Part shown: one piece after another, positions 6,813-64,000 of the stretch
How the letters are laid out: the number at the start of each line of letters is the position of its first letter
How positions within the stretch are numbered: the stretch's first letter is position 1
Source of the DNA: Pantoea rwandensis
Lineage (GTDB): Bacteria; Pseudomonadota; Gammaproteobacteria; Enterobacterales; Enterobacteriaceae
Direction of reading: 5' to 3'
Length of the DNA: 64,000 nt
Assembly: GCF_000759475.1 (NCBI RefSeq)
Contig: NZ_CP009454.1
Location: forward strand, 2,480,001 to 2,544,000
Notes under the pieces: model-generated
The model's database searches: none
What the model was told of the DNA's origin: nothing
Seen by the model: only the letters and a program-made list of their open reading frames with translations
Program-made: the position numbers and the translations under genes

Positions 6813-7718
6813 ATGAGAAAGGTGAGGATCGGGCTGGCCCTGGGTTCAGGTGCCGCCAAAGGTTGGGCGCACATTGGTGTGATTAATGGGCTGGAGCGTG
6901 CCGGCATTGAAATTGATGTGGTTGCAGGCTGCTCAGTCGGCGCGCTGGTGGGATCGGCATACGTCAATGGGCGGCTGGGCGTAATGGAAAAGTGGGTGAG
7001 CGCATTTCGCTATTGGGATGTGATCCGCCTCATGGATCTGTCGTGGCAGCGTGGTGGTTTGCTTCGCGGTGACCGCGTGTTCAGCCACATCCGTCAGTTG
7101 ATCCCCAATGAATTTATTGAGGGGTGCAATAAACCTTTTGGCGTGGTGGCCTCGAATTTAAGTACCGGCCGTGAGTTGTGGTTAACCGAAGGTGATTTGC
7201 ATCAGGCAGTACGCGCGTCCTGTAGTATGCCAGGCTTATTACCACCTGTTGGCTACAATGGTTACTGGCTGGTGGATGGTGCCGTGGTCAATCCGGTGCC
7301 GATATCTCTGACACGAGCCCTCGGCGCCGACATTGTCATCGCGGTGGACTTACAGCATGACGCGCATCTAATGCAGCAGGATTTATTGTCGGTGACGCCA
7401 CAGAGCGGCGAAGAAGAGGCCGCGGCTGAAGCATTAAGCTGGGGCAAAAAATTGCGCCAGCGCATACTGGGTCTGACGCACCGCCGGGCGAATCAAACGC
7501 CGGGCGCCATGGAGATCATGTCCACATCCATCCAGATTCTGGAAAACCGCCTTAAACGTAATCGTATGGCGGGCGATCCACCGGATGTGCTGATTCAACC
7601 GTTTTGTCCGCAGATATCCACACTGGATTTTCATCGTGCAGAAGAAGCCATTGCGGCAGGTAAAGCCGCCGTCGAGAAAAAAATGGATGAACTATTACCG
7701 CTGGTCCGTGGCAGATAA
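6813..7718 (+). CDS. rssA: Patatin-like phospholipase family protein RssA
   Basis: Predicted serine hydrolase of the patatin family, 301 residues. The oxyanion-hole segment LGSGAAKGWAHIG lies near residue 10, the nucleophile elbow GCSVG gives Ser41, and LVDGAVVNP carries the catalytic Asp, so the Ser-Asp dyad is intact. GAGGT precedes the ATG. It is followed after about 100 bases by rssB, the arrangement seen in E. coli, although its substrate and any link to RpoS control are unproven. Confidence 0.93.
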   Translation: MRKVRIGLALGSGAAKGWAHIGVINGLERAGIEIDVVAGCSVGALVGSAYVNGRLGVMEKWVSAFRYWDVIRLMDLSWQRGGLLRGDRVFSHIRQLIPNEFIEGCNKPFGVVASNLSTGRELWLTEGDLHQAVRASCSMPGLLPPVGYNGYWLVDGAVVNPVPISLTRALGADIVIAVDLQHDAHLMQQDLLSVTPQSGEEEAAAEALSWGKKLRQRILGLTHRRANQTPGAMEIMSTSIQILENRLKRNRMAGDPPDVLIQPFCPQISTLDFHRAEEAIAAGKAAVEKKMDELLPLVRGR

Positions 7719-7820
7719 TCAGGTTGTTCATTCACAGGCAGTGCGACTTCAGTCAATTCTGAAAGGCGCAACTGCGTTTTATGAACCACTATTGAAATAT
7801 CTGGTACGCAGGGGGAGAGA

Positions 7821-8837
7821 ATGGAAAAACCACTAATCGGCAAAAAGATACTCATTGTCGAAGATGAGGTCGTTTTCCGTTCGATGTTAGACACTATGTT
7901 GGTGGGGCTGGGAGCCAGCACGCTGGAAGCGGGAGATGGCCTCGATGGCTTAACCTTACTGTCGGCTCAAGCCGTGGATCTGGTGATTTGCGATCTGGAG
8001 ATGCCGCGCATGGGGGGGCTTCAGTTCGTCGAACGTATTCGCAGTCGCGGCAATAGCGTGCCAATTTTGATCATCTCCGCCACGCAGAACATGGCAGATA
8101 TTGCGCATGTCCTGCGCCTTGGGGTTCAGGATGTTCTGCTTAAGCCGCTCAGAAACCTCGAACGTTTTCGTGAAGCTGTATATGAGTGTCTTTACCCTTC
8201 GATGTTCACTTCTAAAGTTGAGGAAGATGAACAACTGTTTCAGGACTGGGATGCACTGGTTCGCGATCCTTTAGCTGCGTCTAAGCTACTGAAGCAGTTG
8301 CAACCGCCGGTTCAGCAAACCATCGCTAATTGCCGCATTAACTATCGCCAACTGACCATGGCTGAACAGCCGGGGCTGGTGCTGGATATCGCCGCGTTGT
8401 CCGACAAGGATTTGGCCTTCTACTGTCTTGATGTGACCCGAGCAGGCGATAATGGCGTGTTGGCCGCCTTACTGTTGCGCGCGCTGTTCAACGGCCTGTT
8501 ACAGGAACAACTTTTCGGACAGAAACAGCGCCTGCCGGAGTTAAACGGCCTGCTGCGCCAGGTCAATATGCTGTTACGCCAGGCCAATCTCAGTGGCCAG
8601 TTCCCCTTGCTGGTGGGGTACTACCATCGTCAGTTGAAAAACCTGATTCTGGTCTCCGCTGGCCTCAACGCCACATTGCACATTAACACCCATCAGATTC
8701 AACTCAGTAATGGCGTGCCGCTTGGTACTATGGGCAGTACGCACCTCAATCAGATCAGTCAACGCGCGGATGCCTGGCAGTGCCATGTGTGGGGCGCGGG
8801 TGGCAGGCTACGGCTGATGTTATCGGCTGAAGAATAA
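7821..8837 (+). CDS. rssB: Regulator of RpoS, ClpXP adaptor
   Basis: Response-regulator-type adaptor that delivers the stationary-phase sigma factor RpoS to ClpXP for degradation. It has 338 residues. The receiver domain (about 1-125) has the acidic pocket VEDE, the phospho-acceptor Asp58 in ICDLEMPRMGG and the Lys in VLLKPL. The C-terminal half is a degenerate PP2C-like domain. A strong AGGGGGAGAG site precedes the ATG. Confidence 0.94.
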   Translation: MEKPLIGKKILIVEDEVVFRSMLDTMLVGLGASTLEAGDGLDGLTLLSAQAVDLVICDLEMPRMGGLQFVERIRSRGNSVPILIISATQNMADIAHVLRLGVQDVLLKPLRNLERFREAVYECLYPSMFTSKVEEDEQLFQDWDALVRDPLAASKLLKQLQPPVQQTIANCRINYRQLTMAEQPGLVLDIAALSDKDLAFYCLDVTRAGDNGVLAALLLRALFNGLLQEQLFGQKQRLPELNGLLRQVNMLLRQANLSGQFPLLVGYYHRQLKNLILVSAGLNATLHINTHQIQLSNGVPLGTMGSTHLNQISQRADAWQCHVWGAGGRLRLMLSAEE

Positions 8838-9030
8838 GCGATCGGATTTATATTTTTTGCGGGCTGGAGACAGGGCCAGGGGTAAGCTTTACACTTGGGT
8901 AATAGTCTTAAATTCCGCGGATTAGCTCCATCCAGGATAAATCCGTCTGATAGTAACTGATATACTCATTTCGTTTTTAAACCGACATATCAAGTATTAA
9001 CTTGAACGGCCTATTAAGAGAGGTATTTAG

Positions 9031-9939
9031 ATGTCTGCCTATAAGTCTAAAGTAAAAAAAGCGGTAATCCCGGTTGCAGGTCTGGGTACGCGTATGCTGC
9101 CTGCTACTAAAGCTATTCCAAAAGAGATGTTACCGCTGGTCGATAAGCCGCTGATCCAATATGTCGTGAATGAGTGTATCGCTGCGGGCATTAACGAAAT
9201 CGTGTTGGTTACACACTCTTCCAAAAACGCCATCGAAAACCATTTTGATACCAGTTTTGAACTGGAATCCATGCTGGAAAAACGCGTTAAGCGTCAGCTG
9301 TTGGACGAAATCCAGTCTATCTGTCCTCCACACGTGACCATCATGCAGGTGCGTCAGGGTATTGCGAAAGGCCTTGGCCACGCAGTGATGTGTGCACACC
9401 CACTGGTCGGTGATGAGCCGGTTGCCGTGATTCTGCCGGATGTGATCATCGACGAGTACGAATCTGATCCGACCAAAGACAACCTGGCAGAAATGCTGGC
9501 GCGTTACGAAGAGAGCGGCCGCAGCCAGATCATGGTAGAGCCGGTTGCTGATGTGACCGCTTACGGTGTCGTTGACTGCAAAGGTGCTGACCTGGCGCCA
9601 GGCCAGAGCGCGCCGATGGTGGGTGTGGTTGAGAAGCCTAAAGCTTCTGAAGCGCCATCTAACCTCGCGGTTGTGGGTCGTTACGTGCTGTCTGCTGACA
9701 TCTGGCCTCTGCTGGCGAAAACCCCTCCGGGTGCTGGCGGCGAAGTTCAGCTGACCGACTCCATCGCCATGCTGATGGAAAAAGAGACCGTTGAAGCCTA
9801 TCACCTGACCGGTGTAAGCCATGACTGCGGTAACAAACTGGGTTATATGCAGGCTTTCGTTGAGTATGGCGTTCGTCATCCAGTACTGGGTAAAGACTTT
9901 ACTCAATGGCTGGAAGGCGCTGTAGGCAACAAAAAGTAA
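9031..9939 (+). CDS. galU: UTP-glucose-1-phosphate uridylyltransferase
   Basis: Makes UDP-glucose from glucose-1-phosphate and UTP for LPS, exopolysaccharide, trehalose and glycogen-linked pathways. It has 302 residues (family norm about 300). The nucleotidyltransferase signature is at the N-terminus: [21 protein letters not shown], followed by the sugar-binding VEKP segment and [17 protein letters not shown] lies upstream of the ATG. It starts a tight three-gene set with ugd (23-base gap) and the epimerase (14-base gap), so it feeds the next two enzymes directly. Confidence 0.97.
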
Positions 9940-9962
9940 TTCATTAAACACAGGATAATTCA

Positions 9963-11303
9963 ATGAAAGTCACTGTATTTGGTATCGGCTATGTCGGTCT
10001 GGTTCAGGCTGCGGTGTTAGCCGAAGTCGGACATGACGTTCTCTGTATTGATGTCGATGAAAAGAAAGTCGAAAACCTGAAAAAAGGCCATATTCCGATT
10101 TTCGAACCGGGTTTGACGCCGCTGGTGATGTCTAACTATGAAGCGGGTCGCCTGAAGTTCAGCACCAATGCAGAAGAGGGTGTTAACCACGGTGTGATGC
10201 AGTTTATTGCTGTGGGTACGCCGCCGGATGAAGACGGTTCTGCCGATCTGAAATATGTGACTGCGGTTGCGCGGACAATTGCAGCGCACATGAACGATCA
10301 TAAAGTGGTGATCGATAAATCTACCGTCCCTGTTGGAACGGCTGATCGTGTGCGTGCAGTAATGGCCGAGACGCTGCAAAAACGTGATGCAAACATCCCG
10401 TTTGATGTGGTTTCTAACCCTGAATTCCTCAAGGAAGGGGCTGCAGTAAACGACTGCATGCGTCCTGAGCGCATCGTAGTGGGTACCGATAACGACGAAG
10501 TGGTTGAATTGCTGCGTGAGCTTTATGAGCCATTCAATCGCAATCACGATCGTATGATTCTGATGGATATTCGCAGTGCAGAGCTGACCAAGTACGCAGC
10601 GAACTGCATGCTGGCGACCAAAATCAGCTTCATGAACGAAATCTCTAACCTGGCAGAACGTTTGGGAGCCGACGTTGAGAAAGTACGCCAGGGGATTGGT
10701 TCAGATTCACGTATTGGTTATCACTTCATCTACCCTGGCTGCGGCTACGGTGGTTCGTGCTTCCCGAAAGACGTGCAGGCGCTGATTCGCACTGCTGAGT
10801 CGATTGGTTACACGCCGCGTCTGTTGCAGGCGGTAGAAGATGTGAATGATTCACAGAAGAACAAACTGCCGAGCTTCATCAAACGTCATTTTGGCGACGA
10901 TCTGCGTGGCAAAACCTTCGCTCTCTGGGGCCTGGCGTTCAAACCTAATACCGACGATATGCGTGAAGCCTCCAGCCGTGTGCTGATGGAAACGCTGTGG
11001 GAAGCGGGTGCGACCATTCAGGCATTTGACCCGGAAGCAATGGAAGAAGCGCAGCGTATTTATGGCCACCGCGACGATCTGAAGCTGACCGGTACCAAAG
11101 AAGCGGCGTTGCAGGGTGCTGATGGCCTGGTCATTTGTACTGAATGGCAGAACTTCCGTGCGCCAGATTTCGACGTTATCAAAACCGCGTTAAAACAACC
11201 CGTGATTTTTGATGGTCGTAACCTGTATGATCCGGAACGTATCAGCAAACGCGGCTTTACGTATTACGCTATCGGCCGCGGAGCATCAATTCAAATTGTG
11301 TAA
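9963..11303 (+). CDS. ugd: UDP-glucose 6-dehydrogenase
   Basis: Oxidises UDP-glucose to UDP-glucuronate with two NAD+. It has 446 residues, the long family form, against 388 for the E. coli K-12 enzyme. The N-terminal Rossmann motif is GIGYVGL, the central helical domain starts near residue 210, the catalytic cysteine is in [11 protein letters not shown], and the C-terminal UDP-binding domain includes [14 protein letters not shown]. In E. coli this gene lies in the O-antigen/colanic acid region; here it sits between galU and an epimerase, which points to a dedicated uronate supply. Confidence 0.95.
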
Positions 11304-60048: not shown

Positions 60049-60747
60049 ATGCTGGAATTGCTCAAGCAGCAGGTGCTGGAAGCCAACCTTGACTTACCGC
60101 GCTATAACCTGGTCACTTTTACCTGGGGTAACGTCAGCGCCATTGACCGCGACCATGGCCTGCTGGTGATCAAACCTTCGGGCGTGAAATACGAGAATAT
60201 GCAGCGCGACGATATGGTGGTTGTGGAGTTAGCGAGCGGCAAGGTGGTGGAAGGGGCGCTTCGCCCATCATCCGATACGGCCACCCATCGCGCGCTGTAT
60301 CTCGCCTGGCCGGAGATTGGTGGCATCGTACATACCCATTCACGCCACGCCACAATTTGGGCGCAGGCCGGGCGCGACATTATGGCGCTGGGGACAACAC
60401 ACGCGGATGATTTCTACGGCACCATTCCCTGTACGCGTGCGATGAAGCGTGAAGAGATACAGCAAGAGTATGAATGGAACACCGGGCAGGTGATTATTGA
60501 AAGCTTTGCTCAACGCCGCATTAAGCCAGCCGACATCCCTGCTGCGCTGGTCAACTCGCACGGCCCCTTTGCCTGGGGTAAAGATGCAGCTGCAGCTGTG
60601 CACAGTGCGGTGGTGTTGGAAGAAGTGGCTTATATGGCGCTTCACACGGAACAACTGCGCAGCGAACTGCCTCCGATTTCGCAGAATCTACTCGATCTAC
60701 ATTATCTGCGTAAGCATGGCAAGAATGCCTGGTACGGGCAGAATTGA
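60049..60747 (+). CDS. araD: L-ribulose-5-phosphate 4-epimerase
   Basis: Class II aldolase-fold enzyme that makes D-xylulose-5-phosphate from L-ribulose-5-phosphate, 232 residues. The zinc ligands are in HTHSRHAT and the later NSHGPFAWG, with PSSDTATH and [12 protein letters not shown] between; Tyr229, the catalytic acid in the E. coli enzyme, is at the same number in AWYGQ. It stands alone, without araA or araB in the window. SgbE/UlaF (L-ascorbate or other pentulose pathways) are the main alternatives. AGGAG precedes the ATG. Confidence 0.85.
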
Positions 60748-60764
60748 ACATTGAAACTTTATTG

Positions 60765-60790
60765 AGGCGCCTGAGGGCGCCTTAATTTTT
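60765..60790 (+). terminator. Terminator after araD
   Basis: The stem AGGCGCC/GGCGCCT with loop TGAG is followed by TAATTTTTT. It separates araD from kdgT, which therefore needs its own promoter. Confidence 0.85.
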
Positions 60791-60849
60791 TGCCATTTAG
60801 CGCTGGTATGGCGATGCACATCATAAAAAAGAAATGCCCACCCTATAAA

Positions 60850-60868
60850 AATAAAACACTGTTTCATT
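60850..60868 (+). promoter_or_regulatory. KdgR box upstream of kdgT
   Basis: AATAAAACACTGTTTCATT fits the published KdgR consensus AATRAAAYRNYRTTTYATT at every position. It lies about 110 bases upstream of kdgT, so KDG-responsive repression of the permease is very likely. Confidence 0.8.
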
Positions 60869-60977
60869 AATATCGATGCGATCACTTTTTTCCAGACTGT
60901 CAGTGGTTATCTTGCCTGCCATGCCATCCGGCGAACGATAACGCATCTCCTTCTGGCTCAGTAAAGGTGACACAACT

Positions 60978-61961
60978 ATGCATATCAAACGTGCAATCGA
61001 TAAGATTCCAGGCGGTATGATGTTAATCCCGCTGTTTTTGGGCGCGCTCTGCCACACATTTTCACCCGGCGCAGGAAAATACTTTGGCTCTTTTACTAAC
61101 GGCCTGATGACGGGCACTGTGCCGATTCTGGCGGTATGGTTCTTCTGTATGGGTGCATCGATCAAACTCAGCGCAACCGGAACCGTGCTGCGTAAATCCG
61201 GCACCCTGGTATTAACCAAAATCGCCGTTGCCTGGGTCGTGGCTGCCGTGGCATCCCGCATGATGCCGGAAAATGGCGTAGAAGTCGGTATGTTCGCCGG
61301 TTTATCCACGCTGGCATTGGTTGCTGCCATGGACATGACCAATGGCGGCCTTTATGCCTCCATCATGCAGCAATACGGTTCAAAAGAAGAAGCCGGCGCG
61401 TTTGTGCTGATGTCGCTGGAATCGGGTCCGCTGATGACCATGGTGATCCTGGGGACTGCAGGCATTGCTTCGTTTGAGCCCCACGTGTTTGTTGGCGCGG
61501 TGTTACCCTTTATTGTCGGTTTCGCGCTTGGCAATCTTGACCCGGAATTACGCGAGTTCTTCGGCAAAGCCGTTCATACCTTGATTCCGTTCTTTGCCTT
61601 CGCTTTGGGTAACACCATCGATTTGGCCGTGATTGCACAAACCGGTTTGTTGGGCGTATTGCTCGGTGTAGCAGTCATCATCATCACCGGTATTCCACTG
61701 ATTATTGCCGACCGCTTGATAGGTGGTGGTGATGGCACGGCGGGGATCGCAGCCTCCAGCACCGCAGGCGCGGCAGTGGCCACGCCGGTACTGATTGCAG
61801 AGATGTTGCCTCAGTTTAAACCGGTCGCTCCTGCAGCGACTGCACTGGTAGCGACATCCGTTATTGTGACTTCTGTATTAGTGCCGATTATTACCGCCGT
61901 CTATTCGAAACGCGTTAAGCGTTCTCATGTGGCGGTGGGACAGCGCGCTGCCATCAAGTAA
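60978..61961 (+). CDS. kdgT: 2-keto-3-deoxygluconate permease
   Basis: Imports the pectin-breakdown intermediate 2-keto-3-deoxygluconate by proton symport, 327 residues. It belongs to the KdgT family with about ten transmembrane helices; the start [33 protein letters not shown] (residues 6-38, split here as [12 protein letters not shown] and [12 protein letters not shown]) and [17 protein letters not shown] are typical. AAGGTGA is upstream of the ATG. The KdgR box in front fits. It suggests growth on plant-derived uronides. Confidence 0.92.
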
Positions 61962-62101: not shown

Positions 62102-62968
62102 ATGACAGTAATTAACCAACCAACTTGCAGATTGTTTACCGAAGTCGGACAAACTACCCAGCTGGCGGCCTATTATGAGGAGGGCCGACACACCATGTGG
62201 ATGATGCTGCGTGCGCAGCCACGGCCCAGTTTCAACCACGAATTAATCGAGGAAATCATGAATCTGAGCTATGCCGCTCAGCGTTCGGGTTTGCCAATTG
62301 ATTTTTGGGTGACGGGTTCGCTGGTGCCGCAGATGTTCAACGCCGGTGGCGATTTGCGTTTCTTTGTGGAGTGCATTCGTAACAACCGTCGTGAAGCGCT
62401 GCGAGCCTATGCGCGTGCCTGCGTGGATTGCATCCATTCGGCAGCGCGGGGGTTTGATACCGGAGCGGTGACGCTGGCGATGATTGAAGGTAGTGCATTG
62501 GGTGGTGGCTTTGAAGCCGCGCTGGCCCATCACTTCATTCTTGCGCAGAACTCTGCACGGATGGGGTTCCCGGAGATCGCGTTTAACCTGTTCCCTGGCA
62601 TGGGCGGCTATTCACTGGTGGCACGTCGTTCTGGCATGAAGCTGGCCGAAGAGCTGATCTGTGAAGGGGAGTCGCATAGCGCGGAATGGTATGAGACGCG
62701 CGGTCTGGTGGATAAAGTCTTCCAGCCAGGCGATGCCTACCGCACCACGCGTACCTTTATCGATACCTTGCGTCCGAAGCTGAATGGTGTGAGAGCCATG
62801 CTGAAAGCGCGCCAGCGCGTGCTGCAACTCTCACGAGCCGAGTTGATGGATATCACGGAAGATTGGGTGGATTACGCCTTCACACTGGAGCCTAAAGACA
62901 TTGCTTACATGGAACGACTGGTGCAACTACAGAACCGTCATAGCGCATCCCTGCGCAAAGCCGGATAA
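62102..62968 (+). CDS. rpfF: DSF-family signal synthase RpfF
   Basis: Crotonase-fold enzyme of 288 residues. RpfF enzymes use acyl-ACP dehydratase and thioesterase activity to make cis-2-unsaturated fatty acid signals (DSF, BDSF). The two catalytic glutamates expected from Xanthomonas RpfF (Glu141, Glu161) are present as Glu138 in GGGFEAALA and Glu158 in GFPEIAFNLFPGMGG. The substrate-pocket start DFWVTGSLVPQMFNAGGDLRFF is also typical of RpfF rather than of ordinary enoyl-CoA hydratases. It ends 12 bases from the convergent GGDEF-EAL gene. GAGGATGAG precedes the ATG. Confidence 0.9.
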   Translation: MTVINQPTCRLFTEVGQTTQLAAYYEEGRHTMWMMLRAQPRPSFNHELIEEIMNLSYAAQRSGLPIDFWVTGSLVPQMFNAGGDLRFFVECIRNNRREALRAYARACVDCIHSAARGFDTGAVTLAMIEGSALGGGFEAALAHHFILAQNSARMGFPEIAFNLFPGMGGYSLVARRSGMKLAEELICEGESHSAEWYETRGLVDKVFQPGDAYRTTRTFIDTLRPKLNGVRAMLKARQRVLQLSRAELMDITEDWVDYAFTLEPKDIAYMERLVQLQNRHSASLRKAG

Positions 62969-62980
62969 TCGAGAGCAGCG

Positions 62981-64000
62981 TTAAACGCGGGCAGGATGCT
63001 TAGCCAGCCAATGCCCGAGCTGTTCTGCGGGCATTGGTTTTGCATAATAATAACCCTGACGCCCATCGACACCGTTGGTCATAACAAACTTCTCTTCGGC
63101 TTTGGTTTCAATGCCTTCCGCAATCACCTGCAGATCGAGGGTTTTGGCCACGGCGACAATGGCACGGACCAACGATTGCGCCACGGGTTGTTTGTTGATG
63201 TTACGCACGAAGCTTTGATCCAGTTTGATTGCATCAATGGGCACGCGAGCCAACTGGGAAAGCGAGGAATAACCGGTACCAAAGTCATCAAGATGAACCT
63301 GAGCACCCAGTTCCTGGAACTGCTTCATTAGCGTAAGTGCACCGGCTTCGTTCTCAATCAGGCAGCTTTCAGTCAGCTCGATATCAATGGGACAATCAGT
63401 GAGACCGGCTTCATTTAATGCCTGCTTCAAATCGGTATAAATGCTTTGATTGAGCAACTGCTTAGCGGAAACGTTCACCGCAACGCGCAGGTAGATGCCT
63501 TCATTGCGCCACTGAACAATTTGCTGTAACACATTGAGCATCACCCAACGCCCGAGCGGAACAATAAGACCAGACTCTTCAGCGTAAGAGATAAAATCTC
63601 CCGGTGGCACCAGACCACGTTCCGGAGAGTTCCAGCGCACCAACGCTTCTGCGCTGCGCACTTCGCCGTCACGGTCTAATTTGGGCTGGTAATACACCAC
63701 CAGCTGCTCCAGCTCCAGTGCTTTGCGCAGGTTAGTATCAAGCCAGAGATATTCGAAAACACGCTGATTCATCTCATTGGCGAACACGCAGAATTTACCG
63801 CGCCCATTCTCTTTGGCGTGATACATCGCGGTATCGGCGTTGCGGATCAGACTTTCCCGATCCTCGCCATGCAGCGGGGCCAGGGCAATACCAATCGAGC
63901 AACCACTGTAGACTTCGATCAAACCAACGCGGAAGGGTTGACGCAGGCGCTCAAGAATACGTGATGCCATGGCTTCCAGCGCAGCCTGACTGGTATGCTC
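62981..64000 (-). CDS. pdeR: Cyclic di-GMP enzyme, C-terminal part (PdeR/RpfR type), cut by window end
   Basis: The 339 C-terminal residues are in the window; the start and the PAS and most of the GGDEF domain lie beyond base 64000. Seen here is the end of a GGDEF domain (RNADTAMYHAKENGRGKF) and a full EAL domain with the catalytic motifs SAEALVRW, ELTESCL, DDFGTGYSSLSQL, KLDQSF, AEGIET and QGYYYAKP. All metal ligands look intact, so it should be an active phosphodiesterase. Place and sequence agree with E. coli PdeR (YciR/Gmr); adjacent to rpfF it corresponds to the DSF receptor RpfR of Cronobacter and Burkholderia. Confidence 0.9.
   Translation of the reverse strand, partial: EHTSQAALEAMASRILERLRQPFRVGLIEVYSGCSIGIALAPLHGEDRESLIRNADTAMYHAKENGRGKFCVFANEMNQRVFEYLWLDTNLRKALELEQLVVYYQPKLDRDGEVRSAEALVRWNSPERGLVPPGDFISYAEESGLIVPLGRWVMLNVLQQIVQWRNEGIYLRVAVNVSAKQLLNQSIYTDLKQALNEAGLTDCPIDIELTESCLIENEAGALTLMKQFQELGAQVHLDDFGTGYSSLSQLARVPIDAIKLDQSFVRNINKQPVAQSLVRAIVAVAKTLDLQVIAEGIETKAEEKFVMTNGVDGRQGYYYAKPMPAEQLGHWLAKHPARV

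Follow-up and report, generated by a model that had tools for sequence, protein, structure and literature searches.

The window, a stretch of 64,000 nucleotides of the Pantoea rwandensis genome (C1:2480001-2544000, in a genome of one contig and 4.33 Mb), ends in a synthase gene, rpfF, and a receptor gene, rpfR (pdeR), that together form an ordinary member of the known RpfF/RpfR system. Very probably the pair is a vertically inherited diffusible-signal-factor (DSF) system, with the chemistry, ligand binding and effect on cyclic di-GMP (c-di-GMP) proposed below. It adds to this signalling system a plant-associated genus for which one paper only hints at DSF activity (PMC4958263). The more useful result comes from comparing paired receptors with 'orphan' receptors whose genomes lack rpfF, a repeated natural experiment on the residues that serve the synthase and the signal. 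The comparison suggests that the much-studied PdeR of E. coli descends from a DSF receptor, and yields point predictions that can be checked with purified proteins. Gene content, domains, motifs, conserved geometry, co-inheritance, the nested absence of rpfF and the faster change of the FI and PAS domains were all computed here.

The rpfF/rpfR locus and its proposed function

The synthase gene is an intact open reading frame of 288 amino acids (62102..62968, forward strand), and the sequence-only reading of it as a crotonase-fold gene with both RpfF catalytic glutamates holds: Glu138 (codon 62513..62515, +; aligned with Xanthomonas RpfF 3m6m) and Glu158 (62573..62575, +), together with Phe44 and Phe88, are invariant in 117/117 aligned RpfF rows, including nine from distantly related members of a different family in the order. 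The glutamates of Xylella fastidiosa RpfF are E141 and E161 (PMC4958263). Among solved structures the best match is the RpfF of the 6dgn complex (433.7 bits, E 2.2e-129), that of Burkholderia cenocepacia (PMC6361424), followed by 5fus (431.9 bits); Xanthomonas-type RpfF structures score 150.8 (3m6m) and 148.3 bits (7zq7), and other members of the crotonase family about 54 bits downward, the best ordinary enoyl-CoA hydratase reaching an E value of about 1e-13. The nearest characterised synthase is thus of the Burkholderia type, and the clustering with ordinary hydratases that would have spoken against a DSF synthase was not seen. The protein exceeds the cut-off of NF006452 (410.8 bits against 177), whereas it scores 176.6 bits against the 550 required by NCBIfam SgnlFctrSynRpfF (NF053515), a model taken to be built on Xanthomonas-type RpfF. 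Its best named matches are 98-100% identical and mostly from Pantoea, with three such records titled Enterobacter or Erwinia; two records titled Enterobacter cancerogenus and Enterobacter ludwigii (L003, L011), whose RpfF is 99-100% identical to this Pantoea-type protein, are probably misnamed.

Convergent with rpfF lies the GGDEF-EAL gene, its stop at 62981 and 12 nucleotides (62969..62980) separating the two stop codons tail to tail, as had been read from the letters. Within the window it runs on the reverse strand from 62981 to 64000, covering the C-terminal 339 residues (the rear part of GGDEF and the whole of EAL), with the EAL motif of the phosphodiesterase domain intact in alignment and DNA (residues 440-442; 63641..63649, -). 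The gene continues for 966 bases beyond the window, to an ATG at window-equivalent position 64966 (C1:2544966) giving 661 amino acids; a longer TTG start upstream would give 682. This outlying part contains the GGDEF motif and the PAS and FI domains, and the proposal that extension past base 64000 would find the latter two was borne out: the PAS domain matches the Cronobacter turicensis crystal construct 6dgg (E 8e-60) and the FI domain the construct 6dga from the same species (E 3e-26). Pfam detects EAL, GGDEF and PAS, and the protein scores 1208.6 bits against the PdeR model NF007474 (cut-off 782). The GGDEF and EAL motifs are intact, and the alignment shows the GGDEF domain to lack the RxxD inhibition site. 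All five PAS residues named as BDSF contacts, S169, N172, Y183, R187 and N202 (PMC6361424), are present.

Upstream of rpfF stand kdgT and an araD-like gene (60049-61961). They occupy the interval from osmB to rpfF, a position taken in E. coli by yciT and yciZ; a cstA-like gene lies upstream of rpfR. A hairpin followed by TTTT at about 63003-63043, in the direction of rpfF and inside the 3' end of rpfR, may mark the end of the rpfF transcript within rpfR, and the fold of this region is not unusual (20/200 shuffles fold equally well).

Work on C. turicensis (PMC4698668) and B. cenocepacia (PMC6361424) has described how such a pair functions, and by analogy with these relatives we propose its chemistry, its ligand binding and its influence on c-di-GMP and cellulose in the window strain. 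RpfF would dehydrate 3-hydroxyacyl-ACP and hydrolyse the product, releasing a cis-2 fatty acid that is probably BDSF-like; the FI domain of RpfR would bind RpfF and restrain its activity; and the fatty acid would bind the PAS domain, raising c-di-GMP breakdown by the EAL domain, with less cellulose and attachment as the outcome. We infer that the window strain signals in this manner. Its genome holds two cellulose synthase genes, one over the NCBI cut-off and a second over the cut-off of the domain model, and a homologue of MlrA (55%). An output of the E. coli type through DgcM, MlrA and CsgD was considered and set aside, as of these only MlrA has a good match in the genome: DgcM is matched in its GGDEF part alone, and CsgD at best over residues 97-209 (38%). 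Cellulose under c-di-GMP control, rather than curli, is therefore the likely target.

Co-occurrence of synthase and receptor, and the origin of orphan receptors

Of 317 confirmed named loci the best 80 were fetched, and in 80/80 of these rpfF and rpfR converge, at stop-to-stop distances of -4 to 85 nt; for L008 and L029 the N-terminal part is missing from the receptor match, which begins at residue 139 or 108. Of 392 genomes scanned across the family, 139 have the receptor and 99 have rpfF. In 99/99 of the latter the receptor gene shares a contig with rpfF and converges on it, with the match ends no more than 150 nt apart in 91 and 324 to 6295 nt apart in eight. Such recurrence across the named loci and the scan argues that the arrangement is not due to chance. 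An earlier scan with one genome per genus had found rpfF in 24/119 and the receptor in 34/119 (33 above cut-off).

Variations on this layout were also seen. Many Enterobacteriaceae loci (L061, L063, L067 and others) have genes that overlap by 4 nt, with both stop codons in one tetranucleotide. The spacing reaches 1.5-6.3 kb in L093 (G112), L178 (G306) and L094 (G445), with genes named by eye as a LysR-like gene plus a small gene (L093) and a fimbria-like operon (L178) lying between the pair. One genome has a second rpfF copy (G629:C7:1005876-1006721) about 280 kb from the paired one, and two Escherichia plasmid records occur among 16 plasmid-collection records with RpfF-like matches, though absent from the rows listed.

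The sequence-only reading had remarked that E. coli has pdeR without rpfF, and had suggested that the receptor may pre-date the synthase. The remark stands as far as sensitive blastn shows: with short words, 5,426 E. coli genomes gave no rpfF match, and the identical search found pdeR in 5,372 (the match is missing in 54). The suggestion does not. In favour of an ancestral receptor, with rpfF a later addition in Pantoea-like lineages, receptors occur without a synthase (40 of the 139 receptor genomes in the family scan), and no case of rpfF without a receptor was seen among the 99 rpfF genomes. Their position in the trees, however, argues the other way. On a quickly built RpfR tree the receptors without rpfF fall within paired clades. 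On a tree of the GGDEF and EAL columns (179 rows, 141 paired and 38 orphan, after dropping five fragments and 14 duplicates) the orphans fall into 12 clades of their own, nested among paired receptors, and the label changes 11 times, where 200 shuffles averaged 34.8 changes and never gave fewer than 29; three other column sets gave 11 or 12 orphan clades and 8 to 11 label changes. E. coli sits within a clade of 19 orphan rows, and the outgroup, Burkholderia, has paired receptors. Erwiniaceae, Enterobacteriaceae and Yersiniaceae are major clades common to the trees of RpfF and of RpfR, while the deep order of Yersiniaceae and two other groups differs, with low support at many inner forks of both trees.

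Remnants of the synthase gene also tell against late gain. In one orphan (L139, G188) the sole RpfF matches, to residues 18-39 and 271-289, lie close together beside the receptor, so that both ends of rpfF are still represented there. Two genomes counted as paired have rpfF in two pieces (G687, L162) or with a shortened match (G749, L161), at the same place as intact rpfF. The stretches searched for remnants extend 2.5 kb past rpfR, and those of the other orphans gave no remnant at E 0.01, bar a weak match in L085 (43.75% over 32 residues, E 0.004). As a candidate relic in E. coli K-12 we considered the small gene ymiD, which overlaps the 3' end of pdeR, and rejected it: only 11-base blastn matches at E 7.2 were found, and the protein is unlike RpfF by eye. 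Taken together, late gain of rpfF is very improbable; rpfF has probably been lost repeatedly, and the nesting of orphans in paired lineages, with the major clades common to both trees, makes loss by E. coli the most likely course. The receptors of G687, G749 and L139 are intact at the FI motif and signal contacts described below, and these three cases of a broken or recently lost rpfF suggest that loss of the synthase precedes change in the receptor.

Receptor change on branches without rpfF

Rates were compared between 156 paired rows (73 of the 99 scan genomes, the window strain included, 80 named loci and three Burkholderia, some strains possibly occurring twice) and 42 orphan rows (E. coli K-12, all 40 found by the scan, and a fragment whose source genome is 49% complete). 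Events were counted by parsimony on approximate trees, and orphan rows within a clade are not independent. Per paired change, orphan-tied changes number 0.50 in FI, 0.52 in PAS, 0.29 in GGDEF and 0.20 in EAL. Against 500 size-matched draws of paired clades, the observed FI/EAL value is 1.64 (maximum of the draws 1.44) and the PAS/EAL value 0.64 (maximum 0.40), while the GGDEF/EAL value was reached in 23/500. Branch lengths on a fixed tree, as orphan over paired relative to EAL, are 3.58 for FI, 3.21 for PAS and 1.65 for GGDEF. The effect is uneven: clades g180, g238, g172 and g157 have FI/EAL values of 0.86-1.04, near the control mean of 0.69, and clades g11, g172 and g157 have PAS/EAL values of 0.25-0.28, near the control mean of 0.22. 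The catalytic motifs are retained, that of EAL in 42/42 orphans and 152/153 paired Enterobacterales rows and that of GGDEF in 41/42 and 153/153. Acceleration of FI and PAS would be expected of a receptor whose FI domain is there for RpfF and whose PAS domain is there for the signal. A literature search by title and abstract start, covering few subscription papers, returned no report of receptor change after rpfF loss, and as far as these searches show the acceleration is new.

The changes concentrate at few residues. In 190 alignment columns no paired row varies; of these, the ones most often changed in orphans are A29 (16 orphan events, 36/40 orphan rows), D26 (11 events, 17/40 rows) and S27 (10 events, 22/40 rows), which together make up a short motif in FI; that 16/16 events at A29 should fall on orphans has a probability of about 2e-8 at FI's own rate. 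The D-S-x-A motif (D26, S27 and A29 all present) is complete in 154/154 paired rows with data and in 2/40 orphans. In a structural model of FI and PAS (mean pLDDT 66.5 overall, 78-92 in blocks of residues 11-50, the PAS part poor), D26-S27 forms part of the turn that joins strand 1 to strand 2, and the second of these strands begins at A29. Published contact with RpfF is ascribed in the text of the paper to the strand 2-3 and 4-5 loops of FI (PMC6361424). The motif was considered as that contact, which the model does not support, placing it outside both loops, and its role may accordingly be indirect, as far as a model of moderate quality can tell.

In PAS, the five BDSF contacts are unaltered in 154/156 paired receptors, the two exceptions being Y183F in Burkholderia, and in 17/40 orphans with data, leaving 23/40 altered; the contact columns show 12 orphan events against one paired event (Fisher p 2e-5 compared with the remainder of PAS). 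Compared with other PAS columns invariant in paired Enterobacterales the excess is modest, random sets of five matching it in 4.5% of draws. Other much-changed PAS columns, V123 (also changed once among paired rows), V185 and N121, may by strand alternation line the BDSF pocket too. In B. cenocepacia, engineered S168A, N171A and R186A raised c-di-GMP (PMC6361424); S169A in orphans is equivalent to S168A, and N172 and R187 occupy the N171A and R186A positions. Five genera were compared in which both kinds of receptor occur: motif and contacts are intact in 15/15 of the paired rows examined, and A29 or a contact is lost in four of the five orphans, the remaining one being L139. One orphan (L090) keeps the motif although a contact has changed, and the order of change is therefore not fixed.

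These patterns suggest that in lineages such as E. coli the synthase was lost and the receptor then changed at its signal-binding, and perhaps its synthase-binding, sites. A fuller account, to which we would give an even chance, is that about a dozen losses of rpfF freed the receptor, usually at D-S-x-A first, an unnamed site serving RpfF by docking or by passing on the docked state, and then in the BDSF pocket; E. coli PdeR would once have served as a DSF receptor, deafened since by R187L and kept as a phosphodiesterase, and orphans that keep the pocket (such as g19 and g193) would eavesdrop on the signal of neighbours. The same changes could instead reflect receptors that adapted to a different partner or ligand and did not simply lose their former ones, a reading we consider possible and rather less probable: E. 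coli YciR/PdeR inhibits the diguanylate cyclase YdaM through direct contact (PMC9684580), the FI core (W21, L46, T61, G81, W89, G91) is retained in 40/40 orphans, and the 17 orphans with all five contacts include every row of g19 (five) and g193 (three). The substitutes are varied, however (V, I, T or D at A29; Y, K, H or D at N172), more as one would expect of released constraint than of one new function.

The paired receptors bear on a further doubt, that RpfF might act mainly within the cell, as an acyl-ACP thioesterase or dehydratase restrained by RpfR, and contribute little to genuine signalling between cells. Low signal levels have indeed been reported: the wild-type signal of C. turicensis was assumed to be under the detection limit of the bioassay (PMC4698668), and a DSF biosensor responded weakly to extracts of P. 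agglomerans 299R, which has an RpfF-like gene 37% identical to X. fastidiosa RpfF (PMC4958263). This explanation nevertheless appears unlikely, as BDSF contacts kept in paired receptors and often altered in orphans point to a ligand tied to RpfF that is probably sensed; the pattern is silent on whether that ligand comes from outside the cell. A DSF system in which RpfR senses the product of RpfF remains the preferred reading of the pair.

Relation to known systems

Xanthomonas RpfF has the fold and both glutamates of the window protein, within an RpfF/RpfC/RpfG system whose receptor is a hybrid kinase with an HD-GYP partner (PMC4698668), where the window has RpfR. The window RpfF scores about 151 bits against Xanthomonas-type 3m6m as opposed to 434 bits against the Burkholderia type, and RpfC and RpfG of the Xanthomonas type are absent from the locus, where the neighbours of rpfF are kdgT and rpfR. 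Elsewhere in this order, L116-L124 (family f12, genus g32) carry homologues of RpfF that share about 33-37% identity with the window protein; in L117, the one locus examined gene by gene, rpfF is convergent with genes named by eye as hybrid-kinase-like (7231-9780) and REC-HD-GYP-like (9807-10859), a Xanthomonas-type rpf cluster.

E. coli K-12 PdeR (YciR) belongs to the same family as the window receptor, with 68.6% identity over 653 residues and an intact EAL domain, and its neighbourhood is partly that of the window (pyrF-yciH-osmB on one side, rnb on the other). It differs in the absence of rpfF, in FI residues 26-30, which read SSDVL as against DSxAL, and in a Leu at the R187 position. The closest counterparts are the RpfF/RpfR pairs of C. 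turicensis and B. cenocepacia. No structural difference from these was found for the window pair, known here from its sequence; its flanks, with kdgT and the araD-like gene before rpfF and the cstA-like gene before rpfR, set it apart from the Cronobacter and Burkholderia systems, whereas the two genes, their convergent layout, the four receptor domains, the BDSF contacts and the synthase glutamates are common to all three.
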